A stretch of DNA of 33,859 bases, taken from contig CAMYKW010000060.1 of NCBI GenBank assembly GCA_947259175.1, positions 1-33,859 of the forward strand, given 5' to 3'. Shown here piece after piece: positions 4,119 through 23,537 of the stretch; within the stretch, counting starts at the first letter, position 1, and every line of letters begins with the position of its first letter. This stretch comes from an uncultured Gammaproteobacteria bacterium. GTDB lineage: Bacteria > Pseudomonadota > Gammaproteobacteria > Arenicellales > JAANXG01. The notes beneath the pieces were generated by a model. It made no database searches. It worked only from the letters and a program-made list of their open reading frames with translations, and was not told the origin of the DNA. The position numbers and the translations under genes were made by a program.

Positions 4119-6428
4119 TCAGTCTTTGCCGGTGGTGGACACGTTTTCCGGCCGCAGTTGCCACAGCTGCAGCAACAGCGCGGGCAAGCCGATCAAAGTC
4201 GTGATCAGCGCCACGAAAATCGCCCCCGAAGTCAGCAAACCAAACCGCAGCGTGCCGCTGAGTGACGCCGACAACGCGATGCCAACGAACCCGAGGCCGA
4301 GTATCAGGGAAGTGGAGATCACCGCGGTTTCAATCTCGCGCATCGTTTCGAAGCCGGCTTGTTTGACGCTGCGGTTGTTTCGCAGCCCGCTTCTGAAACG
4401 CGACATAAAATGAATGGTGTCGTCCACCGCGATGCCGATCGCGATCGACGCCACCATGACGTTGAAAAAATCGAGGTTCACTCCAATCAGGCCCATCAGC
4501 CCGAACACCGACATGATGGGTAACAGGTTCGGTATCAGGCTGAACATACCCACGAGGACGGAGCGGAATACGATAATGATGGTCAGTAGAATCGTCACGC
4601 AGGCGCCCACGAATGATCGAATCTGATTGTTGACCAGGTGTTCCGTGGCTTCTGCGAACACGGCCGCCGTGCCGGTGATGCGCGCCGTCAGGTTGGTGTC
4701 CGCGAGCGCTTTCGCAATCTCCGCATTGAGCTCTTCGATAAGGCTTTGAAGTTCCGTGGTTCCGAGGGACCGAAGACGGACTATGATTCGCGCTTTGGCG
4801 GCGTCGGCGGTGATCAATTTGTAAAGTCCCTCCCCTTGCTCGGACAGATTGGCCAGGTAAACGAAGTTGTCTATGGTCGATTGATCGCCGGGGACGGACA
4901 GGAAGGCCGGGTCGGATTGGTTGAGATACAAGTTGCCGAGCTTCACCAGCTCGACAATGGAAAATGTCTTTTGCACGGGTTCGAACGCTTCCAGCCGTCG
5001 TTGCAGGGCGTCCACAGCCTGCAATGCATTCACGGTCAGCAGCTGGCCGGCGTTTCCCTCCACGATAATATCCAGGGGACCGGTGCCGCCGAAGCGCGTT
5101 TCGACGAAATCGTTCGCCCGTGAAACCGGGTGGTCGGCTTTGAATATATTCAGGAAGTTCGTGTTCGTTGTTATTTGCGACATACCCACCAGAAAAATCA
5201 CCGCAAAGATCACGAACACGCCGATGATTCGGTTTGGGCTGCGCTCGATCAATCGCTCCAACCACGTCGCCGACAGATCGATTCGTTTGTCCGGTCGGCA
5301 CAGGCGGGTGGATACCGCAGGCGCCACCAGAAGCAGCGCCGGCACGAAGGTGACGGACAAAATGAACGCCACACCGACGCCGTAAGCCGCACACAATCCG
5401 AATACCTTCATCACCGGAATATCGCCCAGGGTAAGCGATAGAAATCCAAGCATCGTGGTGAAGCTGGTCAGCGCGCAGGGCACCAGATTCTGCGCCAGGG
5501 AGTGCCGTACCGCCGCGGGTCTGTCCCCGGCGCCGCAATTCTGTTTGTAGGTCGACAGAATATGCACGGCATCGGCGATGGCGATCACCAGTATCAATGG
5601 GGCGACCAACGAGGTCCAGCTGTTGATCGCCAGGTCGAACAGCCCCATGAATCCAGCGAGCCACACCATGGCGAGCACAAAGGTGGCGACTGGAACCAGA
5701 ACCGCCCAGATGTCACGGAAGATAAAGGCGAGGACCACGGCGACGAGTACCAGCGTGACGATCATGGCAACCGCCGTATCGTGCTTTGCCGCCTCCAGTA
5801 GACCCTGCTTGATCTTGGGGCTGCCGACGACGTGGTACTCGCCGGGAAATTCGGCCAGTATCTGTTCAACCCGCTCGACCAGCAGCACGGCGTCGACTTC
5901 TCCGTGTTGCGGCAGCTTGGGGTGAATATATAAGGTCGCCACGCGCGCGTCTTCGGAGATCAGCAGCCCCCGCACCAAAGGCGATATTCCGTGTTTGAAG
6001 GCGGCGATGCCCTGCTCGTCTTGGGAGTACAAGCCGTAGGCGGCGACCAGTTGCGGCATGCCCAGCATGTAACTGACCGTCGGCACGTTGGTCAGGCTCA
6101 GTACCTGGTCGACGCCGGACAGCGCCGTGAGCCGTGTTGTCAATTCGTCAATACGGGCAAGTACGCGTGGACTGAATATGGTGTCCGGGTCTTCGAGGGC
6201 AACGACCAGGGTTTCGTCATTTCCAAAGGTCTGGCGAAAGTTGTTGAAGTATTCGACCGCTGGATTGTCATCCGGTAGTAAATTGACCGTCGACGGGTCG
6301 AAACGGAGGTCCTTGGCCCAATAGGCGAAGAACGCGGATGCGATAATCGTGACCAGCAGGATCGCCCGCGGGTACCTGAGCAGGATGCGGTCGATCACCC
6401 AATCCGCTATGGACGCGTTCGATTTCAT
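4119..6428 (-). CDS. MMPL/RND-superfamily exporter (769 aa)
   Basis: The product has the two-fold layout of the MMPL branch of the RND superfamily. A first membrane helix lies at about 20-37 and a large extracytoplasmic loop at about 38-218. A helix bundle follows, including I-A-I-A-D-A-V-H near 280-290. The second half repeats this with a loop (about 425-600) and a bundle holding A-I-G-I-A-V-D-D-T-I-H-F near 665-675. The paired Asp in these helices is the proton-relay position of the family. Relatives export hydrophobic molecules, sterol-like lipids or pigments in a proton-driven way; the substrate here is unknown. ATG 6428 was chosen over the longer frame from 6545, whose 39 extra residues are Pro/Arg-rich and would precede the normal N-terminus (M-K-S-N...). 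No partner adaptor or outer-membrane gene is adjacent. Confidence 0.85.
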   Translation of the reverse strand: MKSNASIADWVIDRILLRYPRAILLVTIIASAFFAYWAKDLRFDPSTVNLLPDDNPAVEYFNNFRQTFGNDETLVVALEDPDTIFSPRVLARIDELTTRLTALSGVDQVLSLTNVPTVSYMLGMPQLVAAYGLYSQDEQGIAAFKHGISPLVRGLLISEDARVATLYIHPKLPQHGEVDAVLLVERVEQILAEFPGEYHVVGSPKIKQGLLEAAKHDTAVAMIVTLVLVAVVLAFIFRDIWAVLVPVATFVLAMVWLAGFMGLFDLAINSWTSLVAPLILVIAIADAVHILSTYKQNCGAGDRPAAVRHSLAQNLVPCALTSFTTMLGFLSLTLGDIPVMKVFGLCAAYGVGVAFILSVTFVPALLLVAPAVSTRLCRPDKRIDLSATWLERLIERSPNRIIGVFVIFAVIFLVGMSQITTNTNFLNIFKADHPVSRANDFVETRFGGTGPLDIIVEGNAGQLLTVNALQAVDALQRRLEAFEPVQKTFSIVELVKLGNLYLNQSDPAFLSVPGDQSTIDNFVYLANLSEQGEGLYKLITADAAKARIIVRLRSLGTTELQSLIEELNAEIAKALADTNLTARITGTAAVFAEATEHLVNNQIRSFVGACVTILLTIIIVFRSVLVGMFSLIPNLLPIMSVFGLMGLIGVNLDFFNVMVASIAIGIAVDDTIHFMSRFRSGLRNNRSVKQAGFETMREIETAVISTSLILGLGFVGIALSASLSGTLRFGLLTSGAIFVALITTLIGLPALLLQLWQLRPENVSTTGKD

Positions 6429-7136
6429 ACATTGATCCACCAGCGCGGGTGGACTGCGTAAATCATGAGGGCCAATCCCGGGCCGCCGGAGATGACGGGG
6501 TGTCATTGGGTGTCGAGTGAGTATAGAGACACAACAAGACGCCAAGCAACCCCTTCACGTGGAAAGGCGCTTGCTGCATTATTTCGCCGTTGCAGCGAAT
6601 TTCACCAACGCCTGTTTTACGCCTCGGGTCAATATGGAGTTGATGATCCATGCTACGCAATCGCGACGTAGATAACGCTTGCATGGGTGAGTATTTCGGC
6701 AACGGCGCGATTGCAACGATTTGGGCCGCCCACGAGCGATCGTCCGTTCGATTCACCTCATGTTCTCATCCACCGCGTTGCTCGCGGCGGTTTGCGGTCC
6801 AATCGCCCGTGTACCCGTAACAAAAGTGGGGTCTTTGTCAGCGACAATTGACCGCCGTCGCTAAGGTCGCGAATTTATTATCAAAGTATGTGACCGTTCA
6901 GTCGCGTTACATAACCGACCGCCGGGCTGGGTATTGATTAACGCGCAACGAAAGCGGATGATCTCGCTGACGGGCTTTCAGCGGCAGACGTATTGCGGCG
7001 CAACATCGGGTTTTGCCGTGAACGATACGATCCGCGTGCTCGACGCGCCCGCCGCGCAAGCACCGAAGAACTCGGTGTAGGCGTTTTGATTGGTTGTTAG
7101 ACGTATCACCCAACGGTGAAACAAGGAGGATCCGCC
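6429..7136. other. 708-bp intergenic region upstream of the dioxygenase cluster
   Basis: This divergent region separates the exporter (minus) from the dioxygenase cluster (plus). Its short frames (6463-6756 minus, 6465-6671 plus, 6907-7113 minus) lack good starts and look non-coding. It contains a dyad TATGTGAC (6887-6894) / GTTACATA (6906-6913) with 11-base spacing and one mismatch, a plausible regulator site about 225 bases before the first gene. TTGACC (6848) and TATTAT (6876) are spaced too widely (22 bases) for a standard promoter. The cluster's Shine-Dalgarno sequence AAGGAGG is at about 7124-7130. Confidence 0.5.
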
Positions 7137-10058
7137 ATGCTGTTAAGACTTCCCCTGTATTGCACTTCGTTCGTGGTGCTGATTTTTTCCCCGACTGTTT
7201 GGTCGCCGCCGGCGAACGCCACCGACATCGCGGCCTGCAAGCAAATGGTCACACAGGGGCTGCGGGACGTGGCTGAAGATCGCTCGCGGAGATTTATGGG
7301 TAAGGTCAGCGAGGCGGCGGCGCGCTGCCGCGGCGGTGACAAGGCCGTAGAGTATAGAGACACGCCGTGGGTGGATTGGGCGAATTACTGGGCCACGGGT
7401 GATGAAACCTCGCTCAAAGACGGATCGGAAGCCAAGACCAAGCTGGGCAATCACGTCAAGCCGAACGGCCGCGGAATCGACGGTTCATTGCTCGACCTCG
7501 AATACCAGCGGATCGAACTGATCAAGTTCAATCTGTTCGATAACCATACCTACGAATCCTACGTCAAAGGCATCAACGGCACGCCGGGATCGGCGCTCAG
7601 ACGATGGGACGAAATGCGGCTGGATCCGACTCATACGGCCTACACGGCGGTCGGCGGCGAACAACAACAGCGTTGCCGCGGCGGTCTGATCCGCCATCGC
7701 ACGCTGGATGGGATCTGCAACGACATCGACAACCCGAAGATGGGATCGACCGGCACGTATTTTTCACGCAACGTTGAATTCGAGGCCACCTATCCACGCC
7801 TGGCTCGCGAGCACGGCAACCAGCTGGCGATTAATCGCCACAGCGATCCGCAGAACGGGTTTCGCATCGGACTGCTCAAACCCGATCCGCAGTTGATCAG
7901 CCGTAAACTGTTTACCCGACAACAGAAGCCGGATAACAACTGCAACAACGGGCTGGGCGCCGCAGATTATTCTTCGGCCGCGGACTGCGACTACGCCAAG
8001 GCGCCTTTTTTCAACGTACTGGCCGCTTTCTGGATTCAGTTCATGACCCACGACTGGTTTTCGCACATGGTCGAAGGCCACAACAAACCGGGGCTGAAGA
8101 CCGTGGGTTGCGAATCGGAACAGGCGCGCCGGCTCGGTTGCCGGCCGGGCGATCAAATCGAGTATTCCCTGTTCGCGCAGCAGACGGCGCCGGGTTCATT
8201 CGAACACAACGGCGCGAAATTCCTGAAACGCGCGTACAAAACCACGCAAAACACCAACACCGCGTGGTGGGATGCGTCTCAGATCTACGGTTTCGACTCG
8301 GTTTCGGGACAGCGCGTCATACGGGATCCCCGGGACCAAGCCAAATTGCTGCAGCCGCGGGGATATCTGCCGCTGATTGACGATTGCGCGCCCAACTGCG
8401 CCGTCAAGCCGCAATGGAAAGGGCAGGAGTCAGCGGCATTTGCCGACAACTGGAACATCGGCATGAGCTTTTATCACAATCTGTTTGTTCGCGAACACAA
8501 CAGCTTCGTCGACGCCTTTCGCGACATCCAGCGCACGCGCCCGGAAGACGACTCGGGGCTTCGTCATCCCAATAAGCACGATGAGGTCATCCGTTACCGG
8601 GACGTGAGTGACGAGGAAATCTACCAGGCGGCCCGGCTGGTGGTCTCGGCCATGATCGCCAAGATCCACACCATTGAATGGACCCCGCAGCTCTTGTACG
8701 GCGAGCCGTTGTTCAAGGGCATGAACGCCAACTGGTTTGGGCTGTTCAATCACGAGGAAGATGACGTTTCCGTGGTGCTGAGAAAAATATTCGATCGCGA
8801 CGAGAACTTCCTGAGCCGCTGGTCGAGTCGCATCGCGCGCGGCCTGGGGAGCGAGAGTAAGGGAGATGAGTCCAACGCATGGTATTCGGTGCTGGCGTCG
8901 GGAGCCGGGATTTTCGGTCTCAATAACAAACGGGAAAAAGGCAAGCTGTTCTGGAAACGGGATGCGTGGGCGTTGAGCAATCCTGACGACGTCAATGGAG
9001 GCATCAACCATTTCGGTTCACCGTTCAATTTCCCCGAGGAATTCACCACCGTGTATCGGCTGCACCCGCTGGTGCCGGATTTGATCGAGTACCGGGAAAC
9101 GAACTCGCCCAACGAGATCAAACTGAAGATCCCGGTGGTAAAAACCGTGCGCCGTGAATCGACGGACGAGATGCGCTCGCGTGGGCTGGAGAACTGGGCG
9201 TTGAGCATGGGCAGGCAGCGTCTCGGCCTGCTGCATCTGCGCAATCATCCGCTGTTTCTGCAAAACCTCGACATGCCGCACCTGAGTTCGGATTCCGGGA
9301 AAATCGACGTGGTGGCGCTGGACATATTGCGCGATCGGGAGCGCGGGGTGCCGCGCTTCAACGAGTTCCGGCGGCAGATCGGGCTGAAAACCTTGACCAG
9401 CTTCGACGACTTTATCGACAAGCGGCTTGCCGAAGGATCCGCGGCGCGGCGGGCGCAGGAGGAGGTGGTGGGATTGATTCGTGACGTCTACGGCACCCAC
9501 GTCTGCGACGCGAGCAAACAGATCACCCGTGTACAGCGTGACGAAAATGGTGAATTCCTAAACGATTGCCTGGGTCACGCGGACGGCACCCGGGTCGACA
9601 ACATCGAAGACGTCGATACGGTTGTCGGCTGGCTGGCCGAGTACACCCGGCCCCATGGCTTCGCGATATCGGAAACCCAGTTTCATATTTTTATCATCAA
9701 CGCATCGCGGCGGCTGTTCAGTGACCGCTTTTTCACCTCCAGCTTCAGACCCGAGTTCTATTCGCGGCTCGGTTACGACTGGGTGACAAACAACGGCCCG
9801 CTGAGCGATTGTCCCTATGCGCCGGAAAAAACGAAAGACGACAAACCGGTGTGCAATGAACCTGAGCTGTCCAATGGGCACAAAGTACCGGTATCACCGC
9901 TCAAAAGGGTGTTGGCGCGCAACGTTCCCGAGTTGCGCAGCGAGCTCAAACACGTGTTCAACGCCTTTGACCCGTGGGCGCGGGATCGCGGCAAGTACTA
10001 TTCGCTGGCCTGGAAGCCGCGCGCAGACGCGGCCGCCGATCCGTCTTTTTCCAATTAG
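7137..10058 (+). CDS. Exported alpha-dioxygenase-like fatty-acid dioxygenase / haem peroxidase (973 aa)
   Basis: ATG 7137 follows AAGGAGG by six bases; the open frame runs seven codons further up to a GTG. Residues 1-28 form a signal peptide (cleavage after A-N-A). The body follows plant and bacterial alpha-dioxygenases in the peroxidase-cyclooxygenase superfamily. F-W-I-Q-F-M-T-H-D-W carries the distal His305; next come N-T-A-W-W-D-A-S-Q-I-Y-G, F-V-R-E-H-N, and A-K-I-H-T-I-E-W-T. The motif E-F-T-T-V-Y640-R-L-H643 has the catalytic tyrosyl-radical Tyr and proximal His. G-F-A-I-S-E-T and S-R-R-L-F-S-D-R-F-F-T-S lie near the C-terminus. Such enzymes insert O2 next to the carboxyl group of fatty acids, giving 2-hydroperoxides. 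At 973 residues it is much longer than plant enzymes (about 640), with insertions and a long N-terminal part. It is the first gene of a six-gene cluster. Regiospecificity cannot be read from sequence. Confidence 0.88.
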   Translation: MLLRLPLYCTSFVVLIFSPTVWSPPANATDIAACKQMVTQGLRDVAEDRSRRFMGKVSEAAARCRGGDKAVEYRDTPWVDWANYWATGDETSLKDGSEAKTKLGNHVKPNGRGIDGSLLDLEYQRIELIKFNLFDNHTYESYVKGINGTPGSALRRWDEMRLDPTHTAYTAVGGEQQQRCRGGLIRHRTLDGICNDIDNPKMGSTGTYFSRNVEFEATYPRLAREHGNQLAINRHSDPQNGFRIGLLKPDPQLISRKLFTRQQKPDNNCNNGLGAADYSSAADCDYAKAPFFNVLAAFWIQFMTHDWFSHMVEGHNKPGLKTVGCESEQARRLGCRPGDQIEYSLFAQQTAPGSFEHNGAKFLKRAYKTTQNTNTAWWDASQIYGFDSVSGQRVIRDPRDQAKLLQPRGYLPLIDDCAPNCAVKPQWKGQESAAFADNWNIGMSFYHNLFVREHNSFVDAFRDIQRTRPEDDSGLRHPNKHDEVIRYRDVSDEEIYQAARLVVSAMIAKIHTIEWTPQLLYGEPLFKGMNANWFGLFNHEEDDVSVVLRKIFDRDENFLSRWSSRIARGLGSESKGDESNAWYSVLASGAGIFGLNNKREKGKLFWKRDAWALSNPDDVNGGINHFGSPFNFPEEFTTVYRLHPLVPDLIEYRETNSPNEIKLKIPVVKTVRRESTDEMRSRGLENWALSMGRQRLGLLHLRNHPLFLQNLDMPHLSSDSGKIDVVALDILRDRERGVPRFNEFRRQIGLKTLTSFDDFIDKRLAEGSAARRAQEEVVGLIRDVYGTHVCDASKQITRVQRDENGEFLNDCLGHADGTRVDNIEDVDTVVGWLAEYTRPHGFAISETQFHIFIINASRRLFSDRFFTSSFRPEFYSRLGYDWVTNNGPLSDCPYAPEKTKDDKPVCNEPELSNGHKVPVSPLKRVLARNVPELRSELKHVFNAFDPWARDRGKYYSLAWKPRADAAADPSFSN

Positions 10059-10100
10059 TGGCGTCCGCCCGCGCGGCGATAATCGATCGGAGGCCGGCTG

Positions 10101-11171
10101 ATGTGTATTCACGAGACACCCGCTAGCAAACTTGGGATCGGCAGACTGTTTGTCGTCCTGCTGGTGTGCCTGTCGCTCAATCCGGCGAGCGCAGGGGATG
10201 CGCTACGCCTGGGTGAGGAACGGATCGACGACAACGAAGCCCGCATTGCCGATGAACTGGTCAAGGCGATAAAGGAAATCAGTCTGGAGCGCCATCCACA
10301 AGGTCCGTTATTGCGCTTCAATCAGGCGAAAACCCTGGGCTGTGTCAGCGCCCGATTTGAAGTGGGCGATAACATCCGTCCTGAGCTCAGGCGAGGGTTG
10401 TTCGCCAACCCCGGCACCTATCCCGCGACCATCCGCTTCGCCAATGCCAGTCAGTTCGATGATACCAAAAAAGACTTTCGTGGCATGTCGATCAAACTGT
10501 CCGGCGTTGCCGGCGACAGTCTGTGGGGTGAAAGCGGTGAAATGGATTTCGTACTCAACAGCCACCCGGCCCTGTTCGCCGCGGACCCGCAAGACTTCTA
10601 TGACTTTGTCGCGGCGACGCGCAAAGGCCGCCGTTGGCAATATTTCTTGAACCCCACGCATCTTTACTCGCTGCTGATCGTGCTGCGCGGCAGGCAGAAG
10701 ATCTCCAGCCCGTTCGACATCGCTTATTACAGCACCACGCCCTACCGCTACGGCGGCGACGGCACCAAGGCGGTGAAATATGCCGCAACGCCGTGTTCAG
10801 AGTTCGTCGGCGACGCGCCGCGAGGCGCCGATGAGAATTATTTGACCGCGGCGATGCAGAAGCACCTCGACAAAGGAGAGGCTTGTTTCGACTTCAGGGT
10901 ACAGTTTCAAAAGGATGCGCAACACATGCCGATCGAGGACGCTTCCGTGGTTTGGGACGAATCCGTGTCTCCGTTTCTGAAGGTCGCCCGTATCACCGTC
11001 CCCAAACAGAGCATTCAGGATCCGGATGCGCGCGAAAGCTGCGAGCGGATGAGCTTCAACCCGTGGCGTACGCTGGCCGCGCACCAGCCGCTGGGGGGCA
11101 TCAATCGCGTGCGCAGAACGGTGTATGCCGAGATGGCGGCGTTTCGGGCGGCCCGCAATACGTCACAGTGA
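10101..11171 (+). CDS. Exported catalase-fold haem protein with distal His replaced by Gln (356 aa)
   Basis: ATG 10101 has CGGAGG upstream and follows the dioxygenase stop by 42 bases. Residues 1-31 are a signal peptide ending A-S-A. Landmarks align with classical catalase. R72-F-N-Q75-A-K-x-x-G matches human R72-V-V-H75-A-K-G-A-G, so the catalytic distal His is Gln. D-F-V-L-N153-S-H-P matches the Asn148 region. R338-x-x-x-Y342-x6-R349 matches Arg354/Tyr358/Arg365, keeping the proximal haem ligand. It is shorter than catalases (about 500 aa), like the catalase-related group that includes coral allene oxide synthase and small bacterial catalase-like peroxidases. Haem binding is likely; ordinary catalase activity is not. 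Next to an alpha-dioxygenase-like enzyme, a role in converting fatty-acid hydroperoxides is a reasonable inference. Confidence 0.85.
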   Translation: MCIHETPASKLGIGRLFVVLLVCLSLNPASAGDALRLGEERIDDNEARIADELVKAIKEISLERHPQGPLLRFNQAKTLGCVSARFEVGDNIRPELRRGLFANPGTYPATIRFANASQFDDTKKDFRGMSIKLSGVAGDSLWGESGEMDFVLNSHPALFAADPQDFYDFVAATRKGRRWQYFLNPTHLYSLLIVLRGRQKISSPFDIAYYSTTPYRYGGDGTKAVKYAATPCSEFVGDAPRGADENYLTAAMQKHLDKGEACFDFRVQFQKDAQHMPIEDASVVWDESVSPFLKVARITVPKQSIQDPDARESCERMSFNPWRTLAAHQPLGGINRVRRTVYAEMAAFRAARNTSQ

Positions 11172-11192
11172 CTTTGGTTGAGGGAATACGAT

Positions 11193-11645
11193 ATGCATGA
11201 GACCATTTCAGGCTGGCTGGGAAAAACCCGCGACGAATTGGACGACATTTACCGCCAGGCGAAGCCCGGAGCCATCCCCGCCGGGGATACCAAAGGGACT
11301 GCGATTGCCGTCGCCTTTGGCAGCGGCCATGCGAAAATCGTAGCGACGATCGCCAAGCTGTTTGCCTGGCAGGGGAAAGTATTCGACATGTTCCCGCCCG
11401 ATCTAGAGCGCGGCATCCTGATCAACAAGATCACGCCGTTCAGCCTGACGTTTGTTGTCGCCAAGGTGTACCGGGACGACAGCTGGCTGGACGGTGAGCC
11501 GACCATCGTCATTGACTACTCGACGACGTCCTTTATCGCCAAGAAGATCCGCGACGAAATCCGCGAGGTCGAGCCGGGTGTTTACCTGGGCAAGGTGTGG
11601 TGGGGTAAGACACGTATTCTGGATTTTGCGTTGACCGCTAAATAG
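11193..11645 (+). CDS. Uncharacterised protein of the dioxygenase cluster (150 aa)
   Basis: ATG 11193 is preferred over the upstream TTG 11178 because GAGGGA lies at good distance before it. The gene starts 21 bases after the catalase-like gene. The product has no signal peptide, no clear membrane helix and no Cys. Conserved-looking blocks are G-T-A-I-A-V-A-F-G-S-G near the N-terminus, W-Q-G-K-V-F, S-W-L-D-G-E-P-T-I-V-I-D-Y-S, R-D-E-I-R-E-V and P-G-V-Y-L-G-K-V-W-W-G-K. The alternation suggests a mainly beta protein, perhaps a small barrel. I do not recognise a named family and assign no function. Its position inside the cluster suggests a job linked to the lipid-oxidation enzymes. Confidence 0.75.
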   Translation: MHETISGWLGKTRDELDDIYRQAKPGAIPAGDTKGTAIAVAFGSGHAKIVATIAKLFAWQGKVFDMFPPDLERGILINKITPFSLTFVVAKVYRDDSWLDGEPTIVIDYSTTSFIAKKIRDEIREVEPGVYLGKVWWGKTRILDFALTAK

Positions 11646-11662
11646 TCGCCGGAAATCGAGCC

Positions 11663-13021
11663 ATGTCCCATCAGTCTGCATTGACGATTATCGATGAGAT
11701 CAAGCCGGACCAGGTGGAATCACTGAAAACCGCATTGGGCACCATCGCCGCCCCGGGTCCGTTGCATGACGCCATCGCTTTTTCCGCGCTTGGAAACGTG
11801 CACTTCGCCAGGCTGGTCGTATTCGATCAGGATCGCGATCTTGACGGTAACCCGCTGCCGCCGAAGCTGGCGTTATTGACGAATTTTGACGGCGATGTCG
11901 ACGCGCACATCGGCGCGATCGCCGGCACCTGTGGTGGCGGCCTTGACGCCGTATTCTCGGCCTGCGTGCATTACCCCGAACAGGCCGCGGTCTCTGCCGC
12001 GAGGCGCGAACAGTATCTACGCCGGCATCGAGTCAAGGAAAAAGCGTTGTACGTCAACCGGCAGGGTCGCACGGTCAGTCAAATTCTCAGGGAAAAACAA
12101 CTCCGGGATGAGATCCAGCGACATCTCGATGCTCACCCGATTGCATCGCAATCGCCCGCTGAGGTGCATCGCGCCATCGTATCTTTCGTGAAAGACCGCT
12201 CGGACCTGGATTGGGCGCTGGAACCGGAGGTCGGTCCGTCGGAACTCTGGAAGCGCAACGAGCTCGTCCATCGCTGGGCCGGATTGGCGCTGGCGGTGTT
12301 GCTGGCGCCGGTGTTCCTTATCTCCCTGCCCATTTTCCTGCTGGTGTTGCGTTACCACGAGAAACGAGACGTGCCCGATGACTCCGCGGCATCCGCCGAA
12401 TCGGTGCGCGCCTTTCGCGCCGACGAAGATATCTGGGTCCACAACCAGATCATCGCCGTCGGTGTGGTCAAACCGGGATTGTTTCGGCGGCTGCTTACCG
12501 AAGGCATGCTCAAGCTGACCGACTATGCCGCCCGCCATATCTATAACCGCGGGTTTCTTTCCGGCCTGAACACCATCCACTTCGCACGCTGGGTGCCGAT
12601 GGACGACGACCGCAGGTTGTTTTTTTCCAGCAACTACGACGGCAGTCTGGAGAGCTACATGAACGATTTCATCGATAAAGCGGCGTGGGGGTTGAACGCC
12701 ATCTTCTCCAACGGCGACGGATTCCCCAGGACGTGTTTTATGTTTTGCGGCGGCATCACCGACGAGAAGGCCTATAAGCGATTTCTGCCGACGCGGCAGG
12801 TGCACTCGCGGGTCTGGTACAGCGCCTATCCCGATCTGACGACCAAGAATATCGCCAACAACGCGGAAATCCGCGAAGGTTTGTCGCAGACGATGAGCGA
12901 GGCGCAAGCCGCGGATTGGCTGTTGCGACTCGGTGTCGGCAATCGGCTGCCGGCATCGGGCTTCGTGGCGCGCCTCCTCGACAGCATCAGGTGGGACCGG
13001 ATATGTCGCAATTGCAGCTAG
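11663..13021 (+). CDS. Membrane-anchored protein with two related alpha/beta domains (452 aa)
   Basis: ATG 11663 starts 17 bases after the previous stop with GGAAATCGAG before it. Two similar domains flank one strong membrane segment (about 203-226, A-L-A-V-L-L-A-P-V-F-L...). The first (about 30-105) reads V-H-F-A-R-L-V-V-F-D-Q-D then L-A-L-L-T-N-F-D-G-D-V-D-A-H-I. The second (about 256-355) reads I-H-F-A-R-W-V-P-M-D-D-D then L-F-F-S-S-N-Y-D-G-S-L-E-S-Y. This 'HFAR ... NFDG' pattern looks like an internally duplicated ferredoxin-like/dimeric alpha-beta barrel, the fold type also used by DyP peroxidases. I see no DyP haem motifs (no G-x-x-D-G). The 3' end overlaps the DyP gene by 19 bases, implying translational coupling. 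Function unknown; a membrane platform for the neighbouring peroxidase is one possibility. Confidence 0.78.
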   Translation: MSHQSALTIIDEIKPDQVESLKTALGTIAAPGPLHDAIAFSALGNVHFARLVVFDQDRDLDGNPLPPKLALLTNFDGDVDAHIGAIAGTCGGGLDAVFSACVHYPEQAAVSAARREQYLRRHRVKEKALYVNRQGRTVSQILREKQLRDEIQRHLDAHPIASQSPAEVHRAIVSFVKDRSDLDWALEPEVGPSELWKRNELVHRWAGLALAVLLAPVFLISLPIFLLVLRYHEKRDVPDDSAASAESVRAFRADEDIWVHNQIIAVGVVKPGLFRRLLTEGMLKLTDYAARHIYNRGFLSGLNTIHFARWVPMDDDRRLFFSSNYDGSLESYMNDFIDKAAWGLNAIFSNGDGFPRTCFMFCGGITDEKAYKRFLPTRQVHSRVWYSAYPDLTTKNIANNAEIREGLSQTMSEAQAADWLLRLGVGNRLPASGFVARLLDSIRWDRICRNCS

Positions 13022-14457
13022 ACGATATTCAAGGCCTGATTCCGCATGGCTACGGCCGGCTGGGTTTCGCCAGCTTCGTGCTGCTTGCCGTCCGTGACGC
13101 GGAGTCGACGAAGAGCTGGCTCAAGACCCTGCCGATCCGCGATGCCGGGTCCAGGCCGTCGGCGGACGACAGCTGCGTCAACATTGCGTTCAGCTATTCC
13201 GGCCTGGCGGAACTCGGCCTGCCGGAAAGCCTGTTGCAGGGATTCGCCGGCGAATTCCGCGAGGGCATGACGGGGACGGAGCATCGCGTGCGCATACTCG
13301 GCGACCACGGTCCCAACGCCCCGGAGCACTGGCATTGGGGCGGTCGCTACCGCCCGGCGGTGCACATTCTGTTGCTGCTGTATGCCGGCAGCGAGGATTC
13401 GCTGGCGCGGCTCAAAGACGATCATCTGGCTGATTCGCACTCTGCCGGATTGGAAATCCTAACGCAGCTCGATACCAACCGCCTGCCCGAACACAAGGAG
13501 CATTTCGGTTTTCGTGACGGAGTTGCGCAACCGGCGATCGCCGGCCTCGGCGCCAACTCGGTCGACGACGCCGACGGCAATACCATCGCCGCCGGCGAGT
13601 TTTTGCTCGGCTACCCGAACGCCTACGGCCAGTACACGGCGAGACCGCTTCTAGCGGACGGCGATGCGGAACTCGATGCGGACAATCTACTCCCGCCCGC
13701 TCCCGACGAAACGGGCATGCGGGATCTGGGAGCAAACGGCAGCTATCTGGTGTTTCGTCAGCTCGGCCAGAATGTGAGCGCATTCTGGCGTTACATCGCC
13801 GATCAATCGCGTCGCGCCGATGGCGAAGTCGACTTGTCCGCCTGCACGCGCCTGGCGGCGAAGATGGTCGGCCGCTGGCCCGGTGGTGCACCACTCACCC
13901 GGTCTCCCGACCACGACGACCCGGCGTTGAGCAGCGACAATGACTTTCTCTACCACCGCTCAGGCGACGCCATTGGACTGAAGTGCCCGATCGGTGCACA
14001 CATACGCCGCACCAACCCGCGCGACTCGCTGGAGCCGCAGCCGGGCTCCGACCGTTCGATCGAGGTCGGCAAACGTCACCGCATCCTGCGCCGCGGCCGC
14101 ACCTACGGCCCGGCTTTGTCTTTGCCGTTGACAGCGGAGGATCTGATCAACGCCGAACCCGACGGCCGGGAACGCGGATTGCATTTTCTTTGTTTCAATA
14201 CCCACATCGGCCGCCAGTTCGAGTTCATCCAGCATACCTGGGTGAACAATCCAAAATTCGACGGATTGTACGAGGACGACGACCCGATCATCGGCGGTCG
14301 CGGCCACCGGGACATGCCGGGCGGCGTATTCACGGTGCAGGCCGAACCGGTGAGAACGCGCGTTACCGATCTGCCGCCGTTCGTAGAGATGAAAGGCGGC
14401 GAGTACTTCTTCATGCCGGGCATCCGGGCCGTCGAGTTTATTGCGTCGTTGACCTGA
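13003..14457 (+). CDS. DyP-type haem peroxidase (484 aa)
   Basis: ATG 13003 follows AGGTGGGAC and lies inside the end of the upstream gene. The longer frame from 12916 adds only out-of-family residues. The hallmark G-F-R-D172-G (169-173) supplies the distal Asp. G-A-H333-I-R-R-T-N-P-R supplies the proximal His. H-R-I-L-R-R-G-R-T-Y-G (359-369) contains the distal Arg, and Q-H-T-W-V-N-N-P-K-F lies near the C-terminus. DyP peroxidases use H2O2 or organic hydroperoxides to oxidise dyes, phenols and other bulky substrates. At 484 residues without a signal peptide it resembles the longer cytosolic classes rather than Tat-exported EfeB. Its place beside the membrane protein and an alpha-dioxygenase suggests it consumes or uses hydroperoxides made by the cluster. 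Confidence 0.92.
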   Translation: MSQLQLDDIQGLIPHGYGRLGFASFVLLAVRDAESTKSWLKTLPIRDAGSRPSADDSCVNIAFSYSGLAELGLPESLLQGFAGEFREGMTGTEHRVRILGDHGPNAPEHWHWGGRYRPAVHILLLLYAGSEDSLARLKDDHLADSHSAGLEILTQLDTNRLPEHKEHFGFRDGVAQPAIAGLGANSVDDADGNTIAAGEFLLGYPNAYGQYTARPLLADGDAELDADNLLPPAPDETGMRDLGANGSYLVFRQLGQNVSAFWRYIADQSRRADGEVDLSACTRLAAKMVGRWPGGAPLTRSPDHDDPALSSDNDFLYHRSGDAIGLKCPIGAHIRRTNPRDSLEPQPGSDRSIEVGKRHRILRRGRTYGPALSLPLTAEDLINAEPDGRERGLHFLCFNTHIGRQFEFIQHTWVNNPKFDGLYEDDDPIIGGRGHRDMPGGVFTVQAEPVRTRVTDLPPFVEMKGGEYFFMPGIRAVEFIASLT

Positions 14458-14475
14458 GCGCGGCGTTGACCGCAG

Positions 14476-14913
14476 ATGCCCCCACCGGACGTGAAACCAT
14501 GGATCCCCGTTCCGCTGCGGCTGGCGCTCGGTATCGGGTTGATCGTGCACGGCGGCATCAAACTGTTTGTCGACGGCGGTCACGAGAATATTTCGCACAT
14601 GATCAGTTTGCTCGGACTGCCGCTGCCGAACCTGCTGGGCTGGGTGGTGGGGGTGGTCGAATTTGCCGGCGGCGTAGGCATGTTGCTCGGTTTGTACTTC
14701 AAACCGGCGGTGGTGATCAATATCCTCAATATTCTGGGCTTGCTGGTGTTTGGCTATCTGGCCGGCGGCATCCCGGAGCCGCTGCCCGACGGTGATCCGC
14801 TGCCCGCCTACCGCGAGGCGTTTATGATCCTGGCCGGCCTGGTGACCCTGCTCATGCTCGGCGCCGGCAGGTGGTCTCTCGATCACCTGCGGCGCGGTAA
14901 CTCCGGGTACTGA
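14476..14913 (+). CDS. DoxX-family membrane protein (145 aa)
   Basis: Starts 18 bases after the DyP stop, so it is the last gene of the cluster; no strong Shine-Dalgarno sequence is visible. Four membrane helices are evident. R-L-A-L-G-I-G-L-I-V-H-G-G-I-K-L-F near the N-terminus is the usual DoxX signature. It is followed by G-W-V-V-G-V-V-E-F-A-G-G-V-G-M-L-L-G and two more hydrophobic stretches. DoxX-like proteins are small inner-membrane proteins often found beside redox or oxidative-stress genes; their biochemical role is generally unclear. A membrane redox or quinone-linked partner for the haem enzymes is possible but unproven. Confidence 0.85.
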   Translation: MPPPDVKPWIPVPLRLALGIGLIVHGGIKLFVDGGHENISHMISLLGLPLPNLLGWVVGVVEFAGGVGMLLGLYFKPAVVINILNILGLLVFGYLAGGIPEPLPDGDPLPAYREAFMILAGLVTLLMLGAGRWSLDHLRRGNSGY

Positions 14914-15345: not shown

Positions 15346-17721
15346 ATGAAGGAATTCAGTCGGTTGTTTCTTTCCGCGATGGTCTTTGCCGGATTTCTCT
15401 TAACGACCTTTACATCCAACGCCACGGTACGCGACTGCTACCACGTCTCCCAGGACGCAGACAGTGACGGCTTTGCCCGCGAGGGGGCAACCGCAAAAAA
15501 GCTTACGGTGCTTCACAGCCAAAAACTCAACTGTCCCAACGGATACGTCAAGCTGGCGGGCGATAGATACGACGACAACGTACCCGGCAACCGGGATATT
15601 CATCCGCGCAGCGCGGAAGTCGCCTATGACGGCGTCGACAACGACAGCGATGGTCGCACCGACGACCCCGGATTTGTGTATCCGATGAATAATCGCGCCA
15701 ACTGGGTGACCTCGAGCTCGTTCAAGGTAAAGTTGAAAATCAATGACCGCGTCATCACGGAAGCCAGGGCGAGGGGCCAGCGTGTCGGAGCGGTCGTTAC
15801 CCTCACTAATCTCAAACAATCTCAAACGAGTCTTCCTCCTATCACCCTCAATTACATCGACTGGGAGACGTCTGGCAGTCGACTCTACGCGACGTTGACG
15901 GTGCCGAATCTGGATCCGATCACCGTGTATAAGGCGATTGTGCAATTTGCCGATGTGGGCAGCTCCACGGAGCTGGGCGCAGAAACGGATGAGTACTTCA
16001 CCACGACGACCGGGCCGGGCACCGAAGACAAACGACGTACCGGGATTCTTCTTCGTGGTTTTCATGAACTGAATGAATCGAAAGAAGGAAGGGTGGGGTA
16101 TTTGGGTAAACCTTACGAAGACGGCGCCAAGTATGGCTCCCGTCCGACGGAAGCGTGGTGTTCGGAATTCTATAACTGGGCCACGACGCCCTATATCAAA
16201 GGCATCAAGAACGAGACATCGGTGCCGCAGATGGTGAGATTCTTCGAGTACCGCCATTCTTATCGTTCCAAAGACGATATAGCCGCCAGCGCCGCCACTG
16301 AGGACTTCCGCGGCGACTACCTGCCGCAGTTCGAGGGCACCACTAAGATCCTGGGCCACTCATCCATGTTTCTTGCCTATGATGCCGATGCCGACAAAGT
16401 CTGGACGCTGGAGGGCAATGTTGGCGACGGCGTCGGGGTAAGACATCGCGGGTTCGACAAACTGAGCGGTCATGGCCACTTTGAATACAAGAAACTTGAT
16501 TGCGAAGAGTGGTGCGCGGCGAATGCCGAGTGCAGCAAGTGCGATACCAACCGCGCCTGCGGTGTCGGATACGAACGGCTCGAGAGTTGGACCGGGCCGG
16601 GAACCAATTGGCACGCGTGTGCGGAGAAGGCGCGTTCCCGGAATAACCACAACGCCTGTCTGTCGTGGTGTAACGCCAATGACAATTGCAAGAAGTGCGA
16701 CACCAACCGGGCATGCGGGGTAGGGTACGAACGGCTCAAGAGCTGGACCGGGTCGGGTACCAACTGGCACGCCTGCGCGGAAAAGGCACGTTCGCGGGGT
16801 CATCATGCCGCCTGCGAGGCCTGGTGTCGTGAGCATGAAGAATGCGCTAAATGCTCGACCATTAAGACCTGCGGTCCCGGTTACACACGGCTGCAAAGCT
16901 GGACCGGGCGGGGAACGAACTGGCACGCCTGTGCCGAAGAGGGGATTACCATCGACAACCACGCACTTTGCCAGGAGTGGTGCGATGCCCGTGATGATTG
17001 TATCAAGTGCGATACCAGTAGCGGCTGCGGGGTCGGTTTCGAGGGCATCAAGAGCTGGACGGGGAGGGGAACCAATTGGCATGCCTGCGCGGAAAAGTCG
17101 CGCTCGAGAGAGAACCACGCCGCCTGTGAACTGTGGTGCAGGGACCACAGAGAGTGCACCAAGTGCTCCACAAAGGTGGGATGCGGCTCCGGCTATGCGC
17201 GCTTGAAGAGCTGGACCGGAAAGGGAACCAATTGGCACGCCTGCCGCAAGAGCACGTCGCGGGATAATAAGGTCGAATGTGAAGCCTGGTGCAATACGCG
17301 CACGGATTGCGTCAAATGTGATACCAACAGCGCGTGCGGCGTGGGTTTCGAACGCCTCGAGAGCTGGACCGGCCCGGGATCGAATTGGCATGCGTGCGCG
17401 GAGAAGGCGCGCTCAAAAGGTAATCACGACGCCTGTATGGCGTGGTGTAACGCCAATGACAATTGCAGGAAGTGCGACACCAACCGGGCATGCGGGGTGG
17501 GGTACGAACGGCTCAAGAGCTGGACCGGGTCGGGCACCAACTGGCACGCCTGCGCGGAAAAACAACGCTCACAGGATAATCACGCCGCTTGCGCGGCCTA
17601 CTGCGAACAAAATCCAGACTGCGTAAAGTGTTCCACAAAATATGGATGCGGGCGCGGCTATAAGCGCATGGACAGTTGGACCGGTCGCGGCACCAACTGG
17701 CACGCGTGTAAGAAAAGATAG
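15346..17721 (+). CDS. Secreted MopE-motif / CHAP-like protein with eight Cys-rich repeats (791 aa)
   Basis: ATG 15346 is preceded by AAAGGAGA. A signal peptide covers about 1-26. Residues 35-105 hold D-A-D-S-D-G-F and Y-D-G-V-D-N-D-S-D-G-R-T-D-D, the pattern of MopE-type metal-binding segments (Cys of 'DNDCDG' replaced by Ser). A beta-rich segment follows (about 105-225). Then comes a region like CHAP/NlpC amidases: A-W-C272-S-E-F-Y-N-W, G-H338-S-S-M-F-L-A-Y-D and L-E-G-N358, fitting a Cys-His peptidase site. From about 385 to the end are eight units of about 52 residues with six Cys each, carrying S-W-T-G-x-G-T-N-W-H-A-C and C-x-K-C-D/S-T. The even Cys count suggests disulfide-bonded modules outside the cell. 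Enzymatic activity, cell-wall target and repeat ligand are inferred possibilities only. It is followed after 44 bases by the next gene. Confidence 0.8.
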   Translation: MKEFSRLFLSAMVFAGFLLTTFTSNATVRDCYHVSQDADSDGFAREGATAKKLTVLHSQKLNCPNGYVKLAGDRYDDNVPGNRDIHPRSAEVAYDGVDNDSDGRTDDPGFVYPMNNRANWVTSSSFKVKLKINDRVITEARARGQRVGAVVTLTNLKQSQTSLPPITLNYIDWETSGSRLYATLTVPNLDPITVYKAIVQFADVGSSTELGAETDEYFTTTTGPGTEDKRRTGILLRGFHELNESKEGRVGYLGKPYEDGAKYGSRPTEAWCSEFYNWATTPYIKGIKNETSVPQMVRFFEYRHSYRSKDDIAASAATEDFRGDYLPQFEGTTKILGHSSMFLAYDADADKVWTLEGNVGDGVGVRHRGFDKLSGHGHFEYKKLDCEEWCAANAECSKCDTNRACGVGYERLESWTGPGTNWHACAEKARSRNNHNACLSWCNANDNCKKCDTNRACGVGYERLKSWTGSGTNWHACAEKARSRGHHAACEAWCREHEECAKCSTIKTCGPGYTRLQSWTGRGTNWHACAEEGITIDNHALCQEWCDARDDCIKCDTSSGCGVGFEGIKSWTGRGTNWHACAEKSRSRENHAACELWCRDHRECTKCSTKVGCGSGYARLKSWTGKGTNWHACRKSTSRDNKVECEAWCNTRTDCVKCDTNSACGVGFERLESWTGPGSNWHACAEKARSKGNHDACMAWCNANDNCRKCDTNRACGVGYERLKSWTGSGTNWHACAEKQRSQDNHAACAAYCEQNPDCVKCSTKYGCGRGYKRMDSWTGRGTNWHACKKR
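16492..17718 (+). repeat. Eight tandem ~156-bp coding repeats
   Basis: In-frame tandem units of 156 bp (unit 5 is one codon shorter) encode the Cys-rich modules of the 791-aa protein. Most units have diverged, but bases 16671-16784 and 17448-17561, five units apart, differ at only three of 114 positions. This points to recent duplication or gene conversion within the array. Confidence 0.85.
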
Positions 17722-17765: not shown

Positions 17766-19637
17766 ATGAAGGCATGGATTAAGTACGCTGCACCCGTAGC
17801 TGTCGTGTCGCTTATTGCATTGTTCGCTTGGGTATGGGTTGAGTACCTGCAGCAACGCCCTTGGCCACCGGAACTGAATAGCCCAGGCGCCACATTTCAG
17901 TCTGGAGATGTGTATACCTTTACCTGGATCCCGGCTGCAACCGGGCCAAAGGCCGAATTTTATTACCTGCAGCAATCAACGAATAAGAATTTCAGCTCAC
18001 CCACCGCATATAAAGTGGCGCACCAAGCTGCCGGGACTCAACAACAATCAGGTCAAATCGTCGCACCGGAAGGTCCGGTAACGTATTATTATCGGATTGT
18101 CGCCGGCTATACGAGTAAATATTTCAGCCCGGCGGATATACTGAGTGACCCCTCTAACGTCGTTTCAATATCAATCACGCCGTTACCGACTCCTTCGGTT
18201 TTACCTATTACCAAGAAGCTGTATTCCGGTGAAGATTACACTATCAGCTGGACGTCGATCACAAAGGCGAATGCCTATCTACTGGAAGAGAAACGGCCAG
18301 ATGGCGCCACCAAGGATTACAAGCCAACCACCACCTCACACAAGTTTGTTGCACCACCGCTCAAACAAGATGGCAGTTTTTCCTATCGCGTTAAAGCGGC
18401 GAATGCCGCTGGTTCAAAATGGGTCTATATTACCGGCTGGTCCAACCAACAGAGCATAATGATTACGCATGTGGAGCCGCCGCCAAATCTAAAAGTCAGC
18501 CCGAGCTCTGTTCACTACCCAAATAAGTACCAGCTGAGTTGGGGAGTCCCGACTCCCGGACCACAGCCGACTACGTCCTACACCTATAGTCTGCGCGAGA
18601 AAAAATCATCGCAGCCTCCCAAGGTGCTTGCCGCGCAAAGCCAGACAACGTATACCGCTGCGGCGCCTAAGGTGACGAGTAGTACGACTCACGTCTATGA
18701 GGTGATGGCGTATTTTGGTAAGAATCCAATGACGTTCTTTTCATCGCCGGTTAGCGTCACGATTACACCACCACCACCGCCACCGCCGCCCCAGATTACG
18801 AGTGTGTCGCCAGATATGGCGCCGATAGGAACCGAGGTGACGATTAATGGCAAGTACTTTAGCGGGGCGAAACTCGAATTGTATTCCTCCGCCACCGGCA
18901 AAAGCATCACTGTGACACCGAAGAGTCTTACGGCCGATAAGGTCGTATTCAAGGTGCCGTCGGCGGCGTCGTTAAAGACCACCCATGTCCAGCTTATCGT
19001 TAACAAGGTCACTGTCAAAAAGGCCTTTCAAGTGACACGTGCGACCGGCAAGTTCGTGGAACGGCAAGACAAGGTGCAACCCAAAACCCATACCTGCGGC
19101 AAGTTTACTGCAGAGGTGGATTGGCCTCCAAAACAACTCAACATATTCACCGGCCGATTCAAGCAAGGCACGACACCCTTGATCAACTTTGCAACCGGGT
19201 TTAAGGGTACGAATATGGTCAAGAGCGGCTTAGGATTCTCTAAAAACTGCAAGGTCGGCGTTATGGTTGCCGCGACCACCGGTGGCTTGGTTCAGCCGGC
19301 CTACGTCAATTTTTACAATATCGGTTTCAAAGTAGACAGCCAGACGAACCCGGGTACCAAGATCAGCGGACCTCACGGCATAGAACCCAGCGCGTTTTAC
19401 GTCGAGGGTTATAAGTTGCTGTTCAGCCCTGACGATACCATTGCCGCGGTGGTCAATCGAAATAAGTTGGGGCCCACCAAGCTTTGGATCTACATCGTCG
19501 ATATGTTGACCGGTAAACAACTATACGCCGACGGTTTTAACAATCCCATGTTCAGTCTCAGTGTCGACAAAAAGAACAATATCAGCTTTAAGCCCAGTGG
19601 AGCGCAAAGCAAATTAATCAAGATTCCAACGCCATAA
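17766..19637 (+). CDS. Membrane-anchored FN3-like / IPT-domain protein (623 aa)
   Basis: ATG 17766 has GGGAGG about seven bases upstream. One N-terminal hydrophobic helix (about 7-26, no clear cleavage site) anchors the chain outside the membrane. Three FN3-like beta-sandwich segments follow (about 34-140, 145-235, 238-335; each with the S-W/T-W and Y-x-Y-R-V style strands). Next are an eight-proline hinge (18768-18791) and an IPT/TIG domain beginning I-T-S-V-S-P-D-M-A-P-I-G-T-E-V-T-I-N-G. A C-terminal region of about 200 residues is unlike anything I recognise. The architecture suits adhesion or envelope structure. It lies 44 bases after the Cys-repeat gene and may be co-transcribed. The gene is visibly more AT-rich than the neighbouring peroxidase cluster, hinting at different ancestry. 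Confidence 0.78.
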   Translation: MKAWIKYAAPVAVVSLIALFAWVWVEYLQQRPWPPELNSPGATFQSGDVYTFTWIPAATGPKAEFYYLQQSTNKNFSSPTAYKVAHQAAGTQQQSGQIVAPEGPVTYYYRIVAGYTSKYFSPADILSDPSNVVSISITPLPTPSVLPITKKLYSGEDYTISWTSITKANAYLLEEKRPDGATKDYKPTTTSHKFVAPPLKQDGSFSYRVKAANAAGSKWVYITGWSNQQSIMITHVEPPPNLKVSPSSVHYPNKYQLSWGVPTPGPQPTTSYTYSLREKKSSQPPKVLAAQSQTTYTAAAPKVTSSTTHVYEVMAYFGKNPMTFFSSPVSVTITPPPPPPPPQITSVSPDMAPIGTEVTINGKYFSGAKLELYSSATGKSITVTPKSLTADKVVFKVPSAASLKTTHVQLIVNKVTVKKAFQVTRATGKFVERQDKVQPKTHTCGKFTAEVDWPPKQLNIFTGRFKQGTTPLINFATGFKGTNMVKSGLGFSKNCKVGVMVAATTGGLVQPAYVNFYNIGFKVDSQTNPGTKISGPHGIEPSAFYVEGYKLLFSPDDTIAAVVNRNKLGPTKLWIYIVDMLTGKQLYADGFNNPMFSLSVDKKNNISFKPSGAQSKLIKIPTP

Positions 19638-21821: not shown

Positions 21822-21876
21822 GAGAATTCTCCTTTGGTTGAATGTTCAAGAGTGTTGATAAGGGACCGTGAGGATG

Positions 21877-23493: not shown

Positions 23494-23537
23494 GAGCGTT
23501 ATTCCAGATCCGATCACGTCATCCGCGATTTGCTCGA

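Follow-up and report, generated by a model that had tools for sequence, protein, structure and literature searches.

A window of 33,859 nucleotides from an uncultured gammaproteobacterium of the order Arenicellales (contig CAMYKW010000060.1 of assembly GCA_947259175.1) contains a cluster of six open reading frames (ORFs) on one strand, which is considered here as a candidate bacterial fatty-acid hydroperoxide pathway. The spacing between consecutive ORFs is 42, 21 and 17 bases, followed by a 19-base overlap (DUPM/DyP) and a gap of 18 bases. The gene places, gaps and overlap described in a first-pass annotation of the sequence were all confirmed in the ORFs, as was the presence of three haem-enzyme folds in one cluster, which is reflected in matches to PF03098, PF00199 and TIGR01413. 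The cluster comprises the following genes:

7137..10058, + strand: aDOX, alpha-dioxygenase-type haem enzyme, 973 aa; PF03098 (E 9e-69); signal-peptide-like N-terminal stretch.
10101..11171, + strand: CATL1, catalase-related haem protein, 356 aa; PF00199 (E 9e-8); signal-peptide-like start; distal His replaced by Gln75.
11193..11645, + strand: P150, 150 aa, calycin/lipocalin-like beta barrel in the AlphaFold2 model; best fold match 4mve.
11663..13021, + strand: DUPM, 452 aa, two ABM-like alpha+beta barrels with a long hydrophobic helix between them in the AlphaFold2 model; the halves align.
13003..14457, + strand: DyP-type peroxidase, 484 aa, no evident signal peptide; TIGR01413 (106.7 bits).
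14476..14913, + strand: DoxX membrane protein, 145 aa, lineage-specific, in the place held by CATL2 (a second catalase-like protein) in other loci; PF07681 (E 7e-11).

For P150 and DUPM, no match above cut-off was found in Pfam or NCBIfam. Scans of the window revealed 2 promoter sites, compared to 3.5 in shuffled sequences, and 14 terminator sites, compared to 9.5 in shuffles (standard deviation 3.1, not decisive).

The best solved relatives of aDOX are the plant fatty-acid alpha-(di)oxygenases 4kvj (E 2e-61) and 4hhr, whereas prostaglandin G/H synthase 1 was reached at just E 0.047. Within the peroxidase-cyclooxygenase fold, the protein is thus closest to the solved alpha-dioxygenases (alpha-DOX). 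His305, His511, Thr516, Tyr640, His643 and Arg859, numbered from the start at 7137, align to the catalytic and carboxylate-binding residues of alpha-DOX; their equivalents in the rice enzyme, in number and in role, are presumably H157, H311, T316, Y379, H382 and R559. The catalytic Tyr was recognised by the residue in which 4kvj and 4kvl differ (Tyr to Phe). In the conservation counts, for which the window aDOX was started at 7176, the distal and proximal His and the equivalents of His311, Tyr379, Arg558 and Arg559 are kept in all 83 aDOX sequences of more than 700 residues, and the equivalent of Thr316 in 82 of them. From these conserved residues we infer an oxygenase activity of aDOX, i.e., C2-oxygenation of fatty acids.

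To compare gene order, genome contigs were scanned with the product of the first gene. This resulted in 203 relatives, of which the best 80 were retained with up to 10 kb on each side; the counts lean to the kin of the window. All ORFs of at least 60 residues in these loci were searched with profiles of the cluster proteins, and L017, apparently the same contig as L024, was left out of the counts. The first-pass annotation had made its reading depend on a co-occurrence of the genes in other genomes, and such a co-occurrence was found. The order aDOX-CATL1-P150-DUPM-DyP-CATL2 is present on a single strand in 22 of the 80 loci (L027, L031, L032, L036-L038, L042-L046, L048, L049, L051-L053, L056, L058-L060, L069 and L081); in L037 DyP is divided between two ORFs, and in L031 the contig ends within CATL2. 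The hosts come from three phyla and include Pseudomonadota, Thermodesulfobacteriota (e.g., Desulfopila sp. IMCC35006) and, via a single metagenome-assembled genome (MAG) of Sulfurovum, Campylobacterota; MAG contigs, such as the Sulfurovum and Gemmatimonadota loci, may be misbinned.

Nine of the 80 loci with less than 1.5 kb of downstream sequence were excluded from the counts of neighbours. In the remaining 71, the gene directly after aDOX is CATL1 in 40 and a cytochrome P450 (P450) in three, the latter assigned by hand, and P150 is located in the flank of 45. Where at least 5.5 kb of downstream sequence was available (56 loci), the counts are 35 for CATL1, 3 for P450, 39 for P150, 28 for DUPM, 29 for DyP and 23 for a separate CATL2. 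With start codons picked by rule, that of the window aDOX again at 7176, gaps of at most 100 bases separate aDOX and CATL1 in 33/41 cases, CATL1 and P150 in 39/39, P150 and DUPM in 24/26, DUPM and DyP in 25/25, and DyP and CATL2 in 11/21. In the five loci from Halomonadaceae, the DUPM and DyP genes diverge from aDOX, and a fusion joins DyP to CATL2. DoxX, which the first-pass annotation had counted as part of the system, adjoins the cluster only in the window and in one relative (L017/L024), where it replaces CATL2, the commonest sixth gene elsewhere; it was therefore rejected as a core member.

In a tree of 82 aDOX sequences, the distribution of the DUPM/DyP block requires 12 changes, compared to a shuffled mean of 25.8; the partner labels are clustered but do not have a single origin. 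These labels were set by hand. The class without partner (30 sequences) includes six with too little downstream sequence (L064, L072, L090, L093, L096 and L098), and L047 is labelled as contig end, though it has 6.5 kb downstream without partners.

Furthermore, single members of the cluster were used as baits in genome-wide searches. Searches for P150 gave four genomes out of 369 of the class and four out of 398 of the phylum, in total seven distinct genomes, with that of the window in both samples. Since so rare a protein lies beside other cluster-type genes in all seven, their adjacency is not attributed to chance. The neighbour is aDOX in four of the seven (G000, G300, G410 and G788, the last apparently the same genome as L102), while in G190 P150 lies by a RoxA-like gene and DUPM-DyP-CATL2 are located on another contig. 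DUPM was detected in 3 of 321 genomes, namely that of the window, G190 and G021, where it is part of a P450~DUPM~DyP fusion. The CATL1 profile matched 10 of 274 genomes.

The two catalase-like families were examined against solved structures and by their haem-site residues. With a CATL1 profile, coral allene oxide synthase (AOS) 1u5u ranks first in the PDB (E 3e-11), ahead of the best catalase (2e-9); with a CATL2 profile, 1u5u is again first, and 1u5u and 3dy5 are the sole matches at E ≤0.1. By profile, the CATL1 and CATL2 sequences are thus nearer to coral AOS than to catalases. The distal position was set by the R-x-x-H-x-K motif of the relatives together with an alignment of the CATL2 and coral AOS profiles, which places Asn on His67 (this piece alone is not significant); domains of less than 230 residues were dropped, and L120, apparently identical to L102, was left out. 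In CATL1 beside aDOX, Gln stands at the position of the distal His in 42 of 42 sequences, and the distal Asn, the proximal Arg and the Tyr are kept in all of them. This bears out the altered catalase fold reported in the first-pass annotation, and of the residue set of monofunctional haem catalases CATL1 lacks the distal His alone. CATL2 carries Asn at this position in 35 of 35 sequences (34 distinct places, as L019 and L026 appear to be one contig) and keeps the proximal Arg and Tyr. In place of the distal Thr66-His67 of coral AOS, CATL1 has Asn-Gln and CATL2 Gly-Asn. The distal His is kept in 9 of 10 relatives that are either fused to aDOX or not beside it: the three catalase-like domains fused to alpha-DOX have it, with Thr in the distal-Asn column, as do six of the seven unlinked relatives, of which three carry Met instead of the Tyr and one has no aligned residue there. 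Because Gln replaces the distal His, CATL1 is proposed to be no longer a catalase, and dismutation of H2O2 by the substituted CATL1 and CATL2 appears unlikely. According to PMC13049297, plant AOS has a distal-side amide, Asn321, and its Gln mutant still makes some allene oxide; for this reason, Gln and Asn are regarded as compatible with hydroperoxide cleavage.

PF00199 finds only CATL1 in the assembly of the window (97.7% complete), which shows no ordinary catalase of that family, and a search for CATL2 elsewhere in this genome was answered by CATL1 only. Two more distant arrangements were noticed. In L145 (2-2944), a catalase-like domain with Phe at the distal position is part of a 981-aa ORF with a long C-terminal part of unassigned family. 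In two genomes of the order of the window (L150, 4260-7861, and L151, 6240-9616), the gene of a RoxA-like dihaem protein directly precedes that of a catalase-like protein with the distal His intact, and the stretch contains no aDOX.

P150 is 63-85% identical to 33 of its 36 aligned relatives and 35-44% to the other three. Its AlphaFold2 model has eight strands, the first and second of them separated by a helix, and the best structural match is 4mve (Foldseek 9e-5, Z 13.2, 130 aligned residues, root-mean-square deviation (rmsd) 3.0); lipocalins and fatty-acid-binding proteins match weakly and well below. The Z-ranked (VIA) fold lists re-rank the matches of Foldseek only, so that they do not speak for the absence of any other fold. 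For DUPM, described before as a duplicated-domain membrane protein, this description agrees with the data: the halves align to each other (E 8e-9), and the model (predicted local distance difference test, pLDDT, 81.6) shows two ABM-type domains with a hydrophobic helix at 194-235 between them, the most hydrophobic 19-mer being at 211. The best fold match is 9lmn, WhiE-ORFI (Z 13.9, 221 aligned, rmsd 4.0). A patatin match in DUPM (E 0.04) was too weak and was not used. The DyP protein exceeds the TIGR01413 cut-off of 100.5 bits, stays below those of the Pfam DyP models and has 8re3 as best PDB match (E 2e-60). It carries GFRDG and GAHIRRTNPR, as is typical of DyP-type peroxidases; of the 36 sequences longer than 380 residues, 33 have GxxDG and 32 the proximal-His motif.

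The cellular location was estimated with a simple hydrophobicity rule, with L017 excluded from the denominators. A signal-peptide-like start is possible in 60/84 aDOX and 26/41 CATL1, compared to 1/27 CATL2, 1/39 DyP and 0/37 DUPM. As such starts are common in the former and rare in the latter, aDOX and CATL1 (module 1) are probably exported, and DUPM, DyP and CATL2 (module 2) are probably cytosolic or bound to the membrane via the hydrophobic helix of DUPM. For P150 the rule gave 3/48; its divergent forms in L075, L077 and L119 have a membrane anchor or a lipoprotein-type start.

Further information comes from fusions and REPLACEMENTS and from exchanged genes. Single catalase-like~alpha-DOX ORFs were found in Phyllobacterium (WP_262263662.1) and Rhizobium phaseoli (WP_199287286.1), both on Rhizobiales plasmids, and in genome G121; the R. 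phaseoli ORF is directly followed by a RoxA-like gene. With CATL1 adjacent to aDOX in 40 of the 71 loci counted above and related fused ORFs in three bacteria, the catalase-like protein is genetically or physically coupled to a putative fatty-acid oxygenase, as in coral AOS and hydroperoxide lyase (HPL). In L022, L054, L089 and L100, a P450 (PF00067 for L022, profile for the others) takes the slot of CATL1 between aDOX and P150. An assignment of this P450 to CYP74 was rejected, the CYP74-like features being too weak and the I-helix fairly conventional. Eleven of the 80 loci have two RoxA-like dihaem cytochromes (PF21419 for L028 and L089, own profile elsewhere) in the vicinity of aDOX, in L029 on the other strand. 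The pair occupies the place of the second module in some loci and stands beside aDOX-CATL1-P150 in Alteromonas and others, and in L089 one ORF spans P150 and a RoxA-like domain. Kin of these proteins are the oleate 10S-dioxygenase/diol synthase pair of P. aeruginosa (PMC4496055). P450~DUPM~DyP fusions of about 1430-1640 residues are encoded in a gammaproteobacterium (L020, 6882-11171) and on plasmids of Pararhizobium, Novosphingobium and Sulfitobacter (L104, L105 and L106); no aDOX was found in the examined stretches around them. All of the parts that can replace one another are haem enzymes, and their families form or convert peroxides of lipids or other organic compounds; this is the main argument for a pathway: the catalase-like~alpha-DOX fusions, the P450 in the catalase slot and the RoxA-like pairing point to formation and conversion of an organic, most likely fatty-acid, hydroperoxide.

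Lipid-related genes occur nearby. Patatin-like lipase genes adjoin P150 in L067 and L103 and lie within 5 kb of alpha-DOX on plasmids of Phyllobacterium and Calothrix. Seven recurrent neighbour families were put to Pfam and belong to signalling, transport, peptidase and FGE-type or Tle1-like phospholipase families; the Tle1-like catalytic domain is found in L081 (18488-20200), with similar ORFs in L026, L086, L087 and L089. Elsewhere, alpha-DOX on a Streptomyces plasmid (L130) lies near a thiamine enzyme, an FAD oxidase, a P450 and a hydrolase, and the other alpha-DOX loci L109 and L127 contain patatin and a thiamine enzyme (Phyllobacterium) or a GMC oxidoreductase and patatin (Calothrix).

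With moderate confidence, the cluster is read as a bacterial fatty-acid hydroperoxide (oxylipin-type) pathway. In a first step, the exported aDOX would bind a fatty acid through Arg859, His511 and Thr516, abstract a hydrogen at C2 by a radical on Tyr640 and add O2, as its catalytic residues suggest, giving the 2-hydroperoxy acid. CATL1, predicted for the same compartment, may then cleave or isomerise the lipid hydroperoxide to, e.g., a 2-hydroxy acid or a chain-shortened aldehyde, and the predicted lipocalin-like barrel of P150 may carry the oxidised lipid. In the third and weakest step, DUPM, DyP and usually CATL2 might further convert or reduce the products or peroxide on the membrane/cytosol side. 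A lipid-peroxide pathway had been proposed in the first-pass annotation as well. This part is strengthened by the conserved unit, the fusions and the P450 and RoxA-like swaps, whereas the allene-oxide-type rearrangement proposed with it is not upheld: a 2-hydroperoxy acid does not belong to the allylic hydroperoxides and is hence no substrate for classic allene-oxide chemistry, and CATL1 is devoid of the coral AOS His. A reduction of the remaining hydroperoxide by DyP at the membrane, proposed there too, is likewise not upheld, although DyP is without an evident signal peptide and the adjacent DUPM is, by sequence, anchored in the membrane.

Several observations weigh against a hydroperoxide pathway of this kind. 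Coral AOS uses His67 according to PMC5617202, and its lack in CATL1 argues against AOS-like chemistry. As a single sequence, the window CATL1 ranks the uncharacterised catalase-like 3e4w (E 1e-8) just above 1u5u (E 4e-8), and in CATL2 the distal Asn is lost as well, with Ile, Val or Thr in its place. Confidence in the P150 model is moderate (pLDDT 76). Despite the same catalytic residues, 26 of the 71 aDOX loci contain neither CATL1 nor a downstream P450 nor P150, so that aDOX may work alone; one of them, L055, has a P450 upstream and RoxA-like genes downstream. L025 and L026 retain aDOX-P150 without CATL1, and in G483 and G641, P150 is found with DUPM-DyP-CATL2 next to a GMC oxidoreductase and without aDOX. 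Finally, eight of the ten genomes matched by the CATL1 profile have no aDOX in the stretch examined (one match is the CATL2 of G190 in its DUPM block, two have an adjacent RoxA-like gene and five no cluster-type gene), from which it follows that the catalase-like family is wider than the cluster.

Partnerless aDOX loci bear directly on a different explanation, in which lipid alpha-oxidation serves carbon use or yields odd-chain aldehydes or 2-hydroxy membrane fatty acids rather than signals, and CATL1 and DyP merely clear the 2-hydroperoxide or by-product peroxide. Alpha-DOX without partners is present in many Acidobacteriota, Nitrospirota and Burkholderiales loci, lipase genes neighbour some loci, and the characterised cyanobacterial alpha-DOXs give fatty aldehydes (PMC8720084). 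We consider this explanation rather unlikely for the cluster, where two catalase-like families, the P450 alternative and a dedicated, putatively lipocalin-like protein exceed the needs of aldehyde formation; a weaker point is that no aldehyde dehydrogenase is among the seven neighbour families put to Pfam. A general peroxide-defence cluster, removing H2O2 or organic peroxides under stress with aDOX as a peroxidase, is suggested by the DyP and catalase-like names and by the lack of another PF00199 catalase in the nearly complete assembly. This would be hard to reconcile with the loss of the distal His throughout CATL1 and CATL2, when fused or unlinked relatives mostly keep it, with the carboxylate-binding set and catalytic Tyr kept in the 83 compared aDOX sequences, and with P450 and RoxA-like slot-holders from oxygenase families, and it is judged improbable.

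The substrate might also be another hydrophobic acid or an isoprenoid or polymer, with the cluster serving its breakdown or tailoring. The PDB matches of a RoxA-like partner include 4b2n, the rubber oxygenase RoxA (PMC4496055), the best folds for DUPM are polyketide ABM-type enzymes, and GMC oxidoreductases stand beside the P150-DUPM-DyP-CATL2 block in two genomes. With the residues that hold the fatty-acid carboxylate in alpha-DOX retained, and none of the seven Pfam-checked neighbour families devoted to polyketide or isoprenoid synthesis, we give this explanation very little credence. The fatty-acid hydroperoxide pathway can be extended to a more specific proposal, in which two new catalase-fold hydroperoxide enzymes, with Gln or Asn for the catalytic His, would act in series across the membrane on hydroperoxides made by alpha-DOX, P150 would be the lipid carrier and DUPM-DyP a dedicated membrane step, the whole forming a complete cross-phylum oxylipin pathway with exchangeable P450, RoxA-like and catalase-like modules. 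This extension is tentative, and it is doubtful that it holds in full.

In the vicinity of the cluster, an MMPL/HAE3-type exporter is encoded upstream (4122-6545, - strand); a search of the ORFs in the other loci found no relative of it at E 1e-10. Downstream, a protein of 791 aa (15346-17718, + strand) contains many Cys-rich repeats (WTGxGTNWHAC) and has no match in Pfam, and it is followed by a TIG-domain protein (17766-19634); L046 also has a TIG protein after CATL2. A thiamine enzyme and a GMC oxidoreductase (20040-23541, - strand) were considered as a lyase pair of alpha-oxidation, an idea prompted by the thiamine enzyme near the Phyllobacterium fusion. It was dropped, since NCBIfam identifies them as sulfoacetaldehyde acetyltransferase (973 bits) and choline dehydrogenase-like, i.e., ordinary taurine/choline-type genes.

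A tandem of a cyclooxygenase-family dioxygenase and a catalase-related converter is already known. Nostoc punctiforme has a linoleate 10S-dioxygenase and a catalase-related 10S-hydroperoxide lyase (PMC13049297, PMC9579011), and a cyanobacterial catalase-haem dioxygenase fusion is mentioned in PMC11719350. The present cluster resembles the Nostoc pair in combining a dioxygenase of the cyclooxygenase superfamily with a catalase-related protein for a fatty-acid hydroperoxide and in the existence of fusions of both domains. It differs in that aDOX is nearest to alpha-DOX among solved structures, in the distal Gln and Asn of its catalase-like proteins, in the additional P150, DUPM, DyP and CATL2, and in its hosts, Gammaproteobacteria and some other phyla. 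With the plant alpha-DOXs of rice and Arabidopsis, aDOX shares the fold and the full catalytic residue set. Unlike these and the cyanobacterial CalDOX and LepDOX (PMC8720084), it has 973 aa, compared to 621-652 for the chains of solved structure, carries inserts and an extended N-terminus, is predicted to be exported and is clustered with peroxide-converting genes.

Coral AOS/HPL and the cyanobacterial catalase-lipoxygenase fusions likewise couple a catalase fold with a haem Tyr ligand to a fatty-acid oxygenase; in contrast to the coral proteins, the partner here is a haem dioxygenase instead of a lipoxygenase, and the distal Thr-His pair is substituted. The fungal linoleate diol synthases, which are dioxygenase-P450 fusions (PMC13049297), also join a haem dioxygenase to a hydroperoxide-converting haem enzyme, comparable to the clusters with P450 in the catalase slot, whereas the bacterial genes are separate. 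The oleate-diol synthase PA2077/PA2078 of P. aeruginosa (PMC4496055) is a RoxA-like dihaem periplasmic pair similar to those beside aDOX-CATL1-P150; the window has DUPM-DyP instead, and in excerpts of that source no aDOX is described with the Pseudomonas pair. A literature search, with subscription papers largely outside its scope, found no description of this cluster. As far as this search shows, the following are new: the operon-like cluster based on alpha-DOX and its spread across phyla, the slots held by different enzymes, the catalases with amide substitutions, and P150 and DUPM.

Alpha-DOXs have been placed in five bacterial phyla by phylogeny, and little is known of them outside plants (PMC8720084). 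The cluster gives the enzyme fixed partners, which makes its role in bacteria testable. It also supplies natural active-site variants of the catalase fold (His, Gln and Asn) tied to gene context, which can help in asking how this fold is turned into a hydroperoxide isomerase or lyase. Should its products leave the cell, genera such as Alteromonas, Methylomonas and Halomonas, which include named strains, would turn out to be a new source of lipid signals or volatile aldehydes, and if the oxylipin reading is true, the cluster would represent a bacterial counterpart of the making of lipid signals in plants, corals and fungi.

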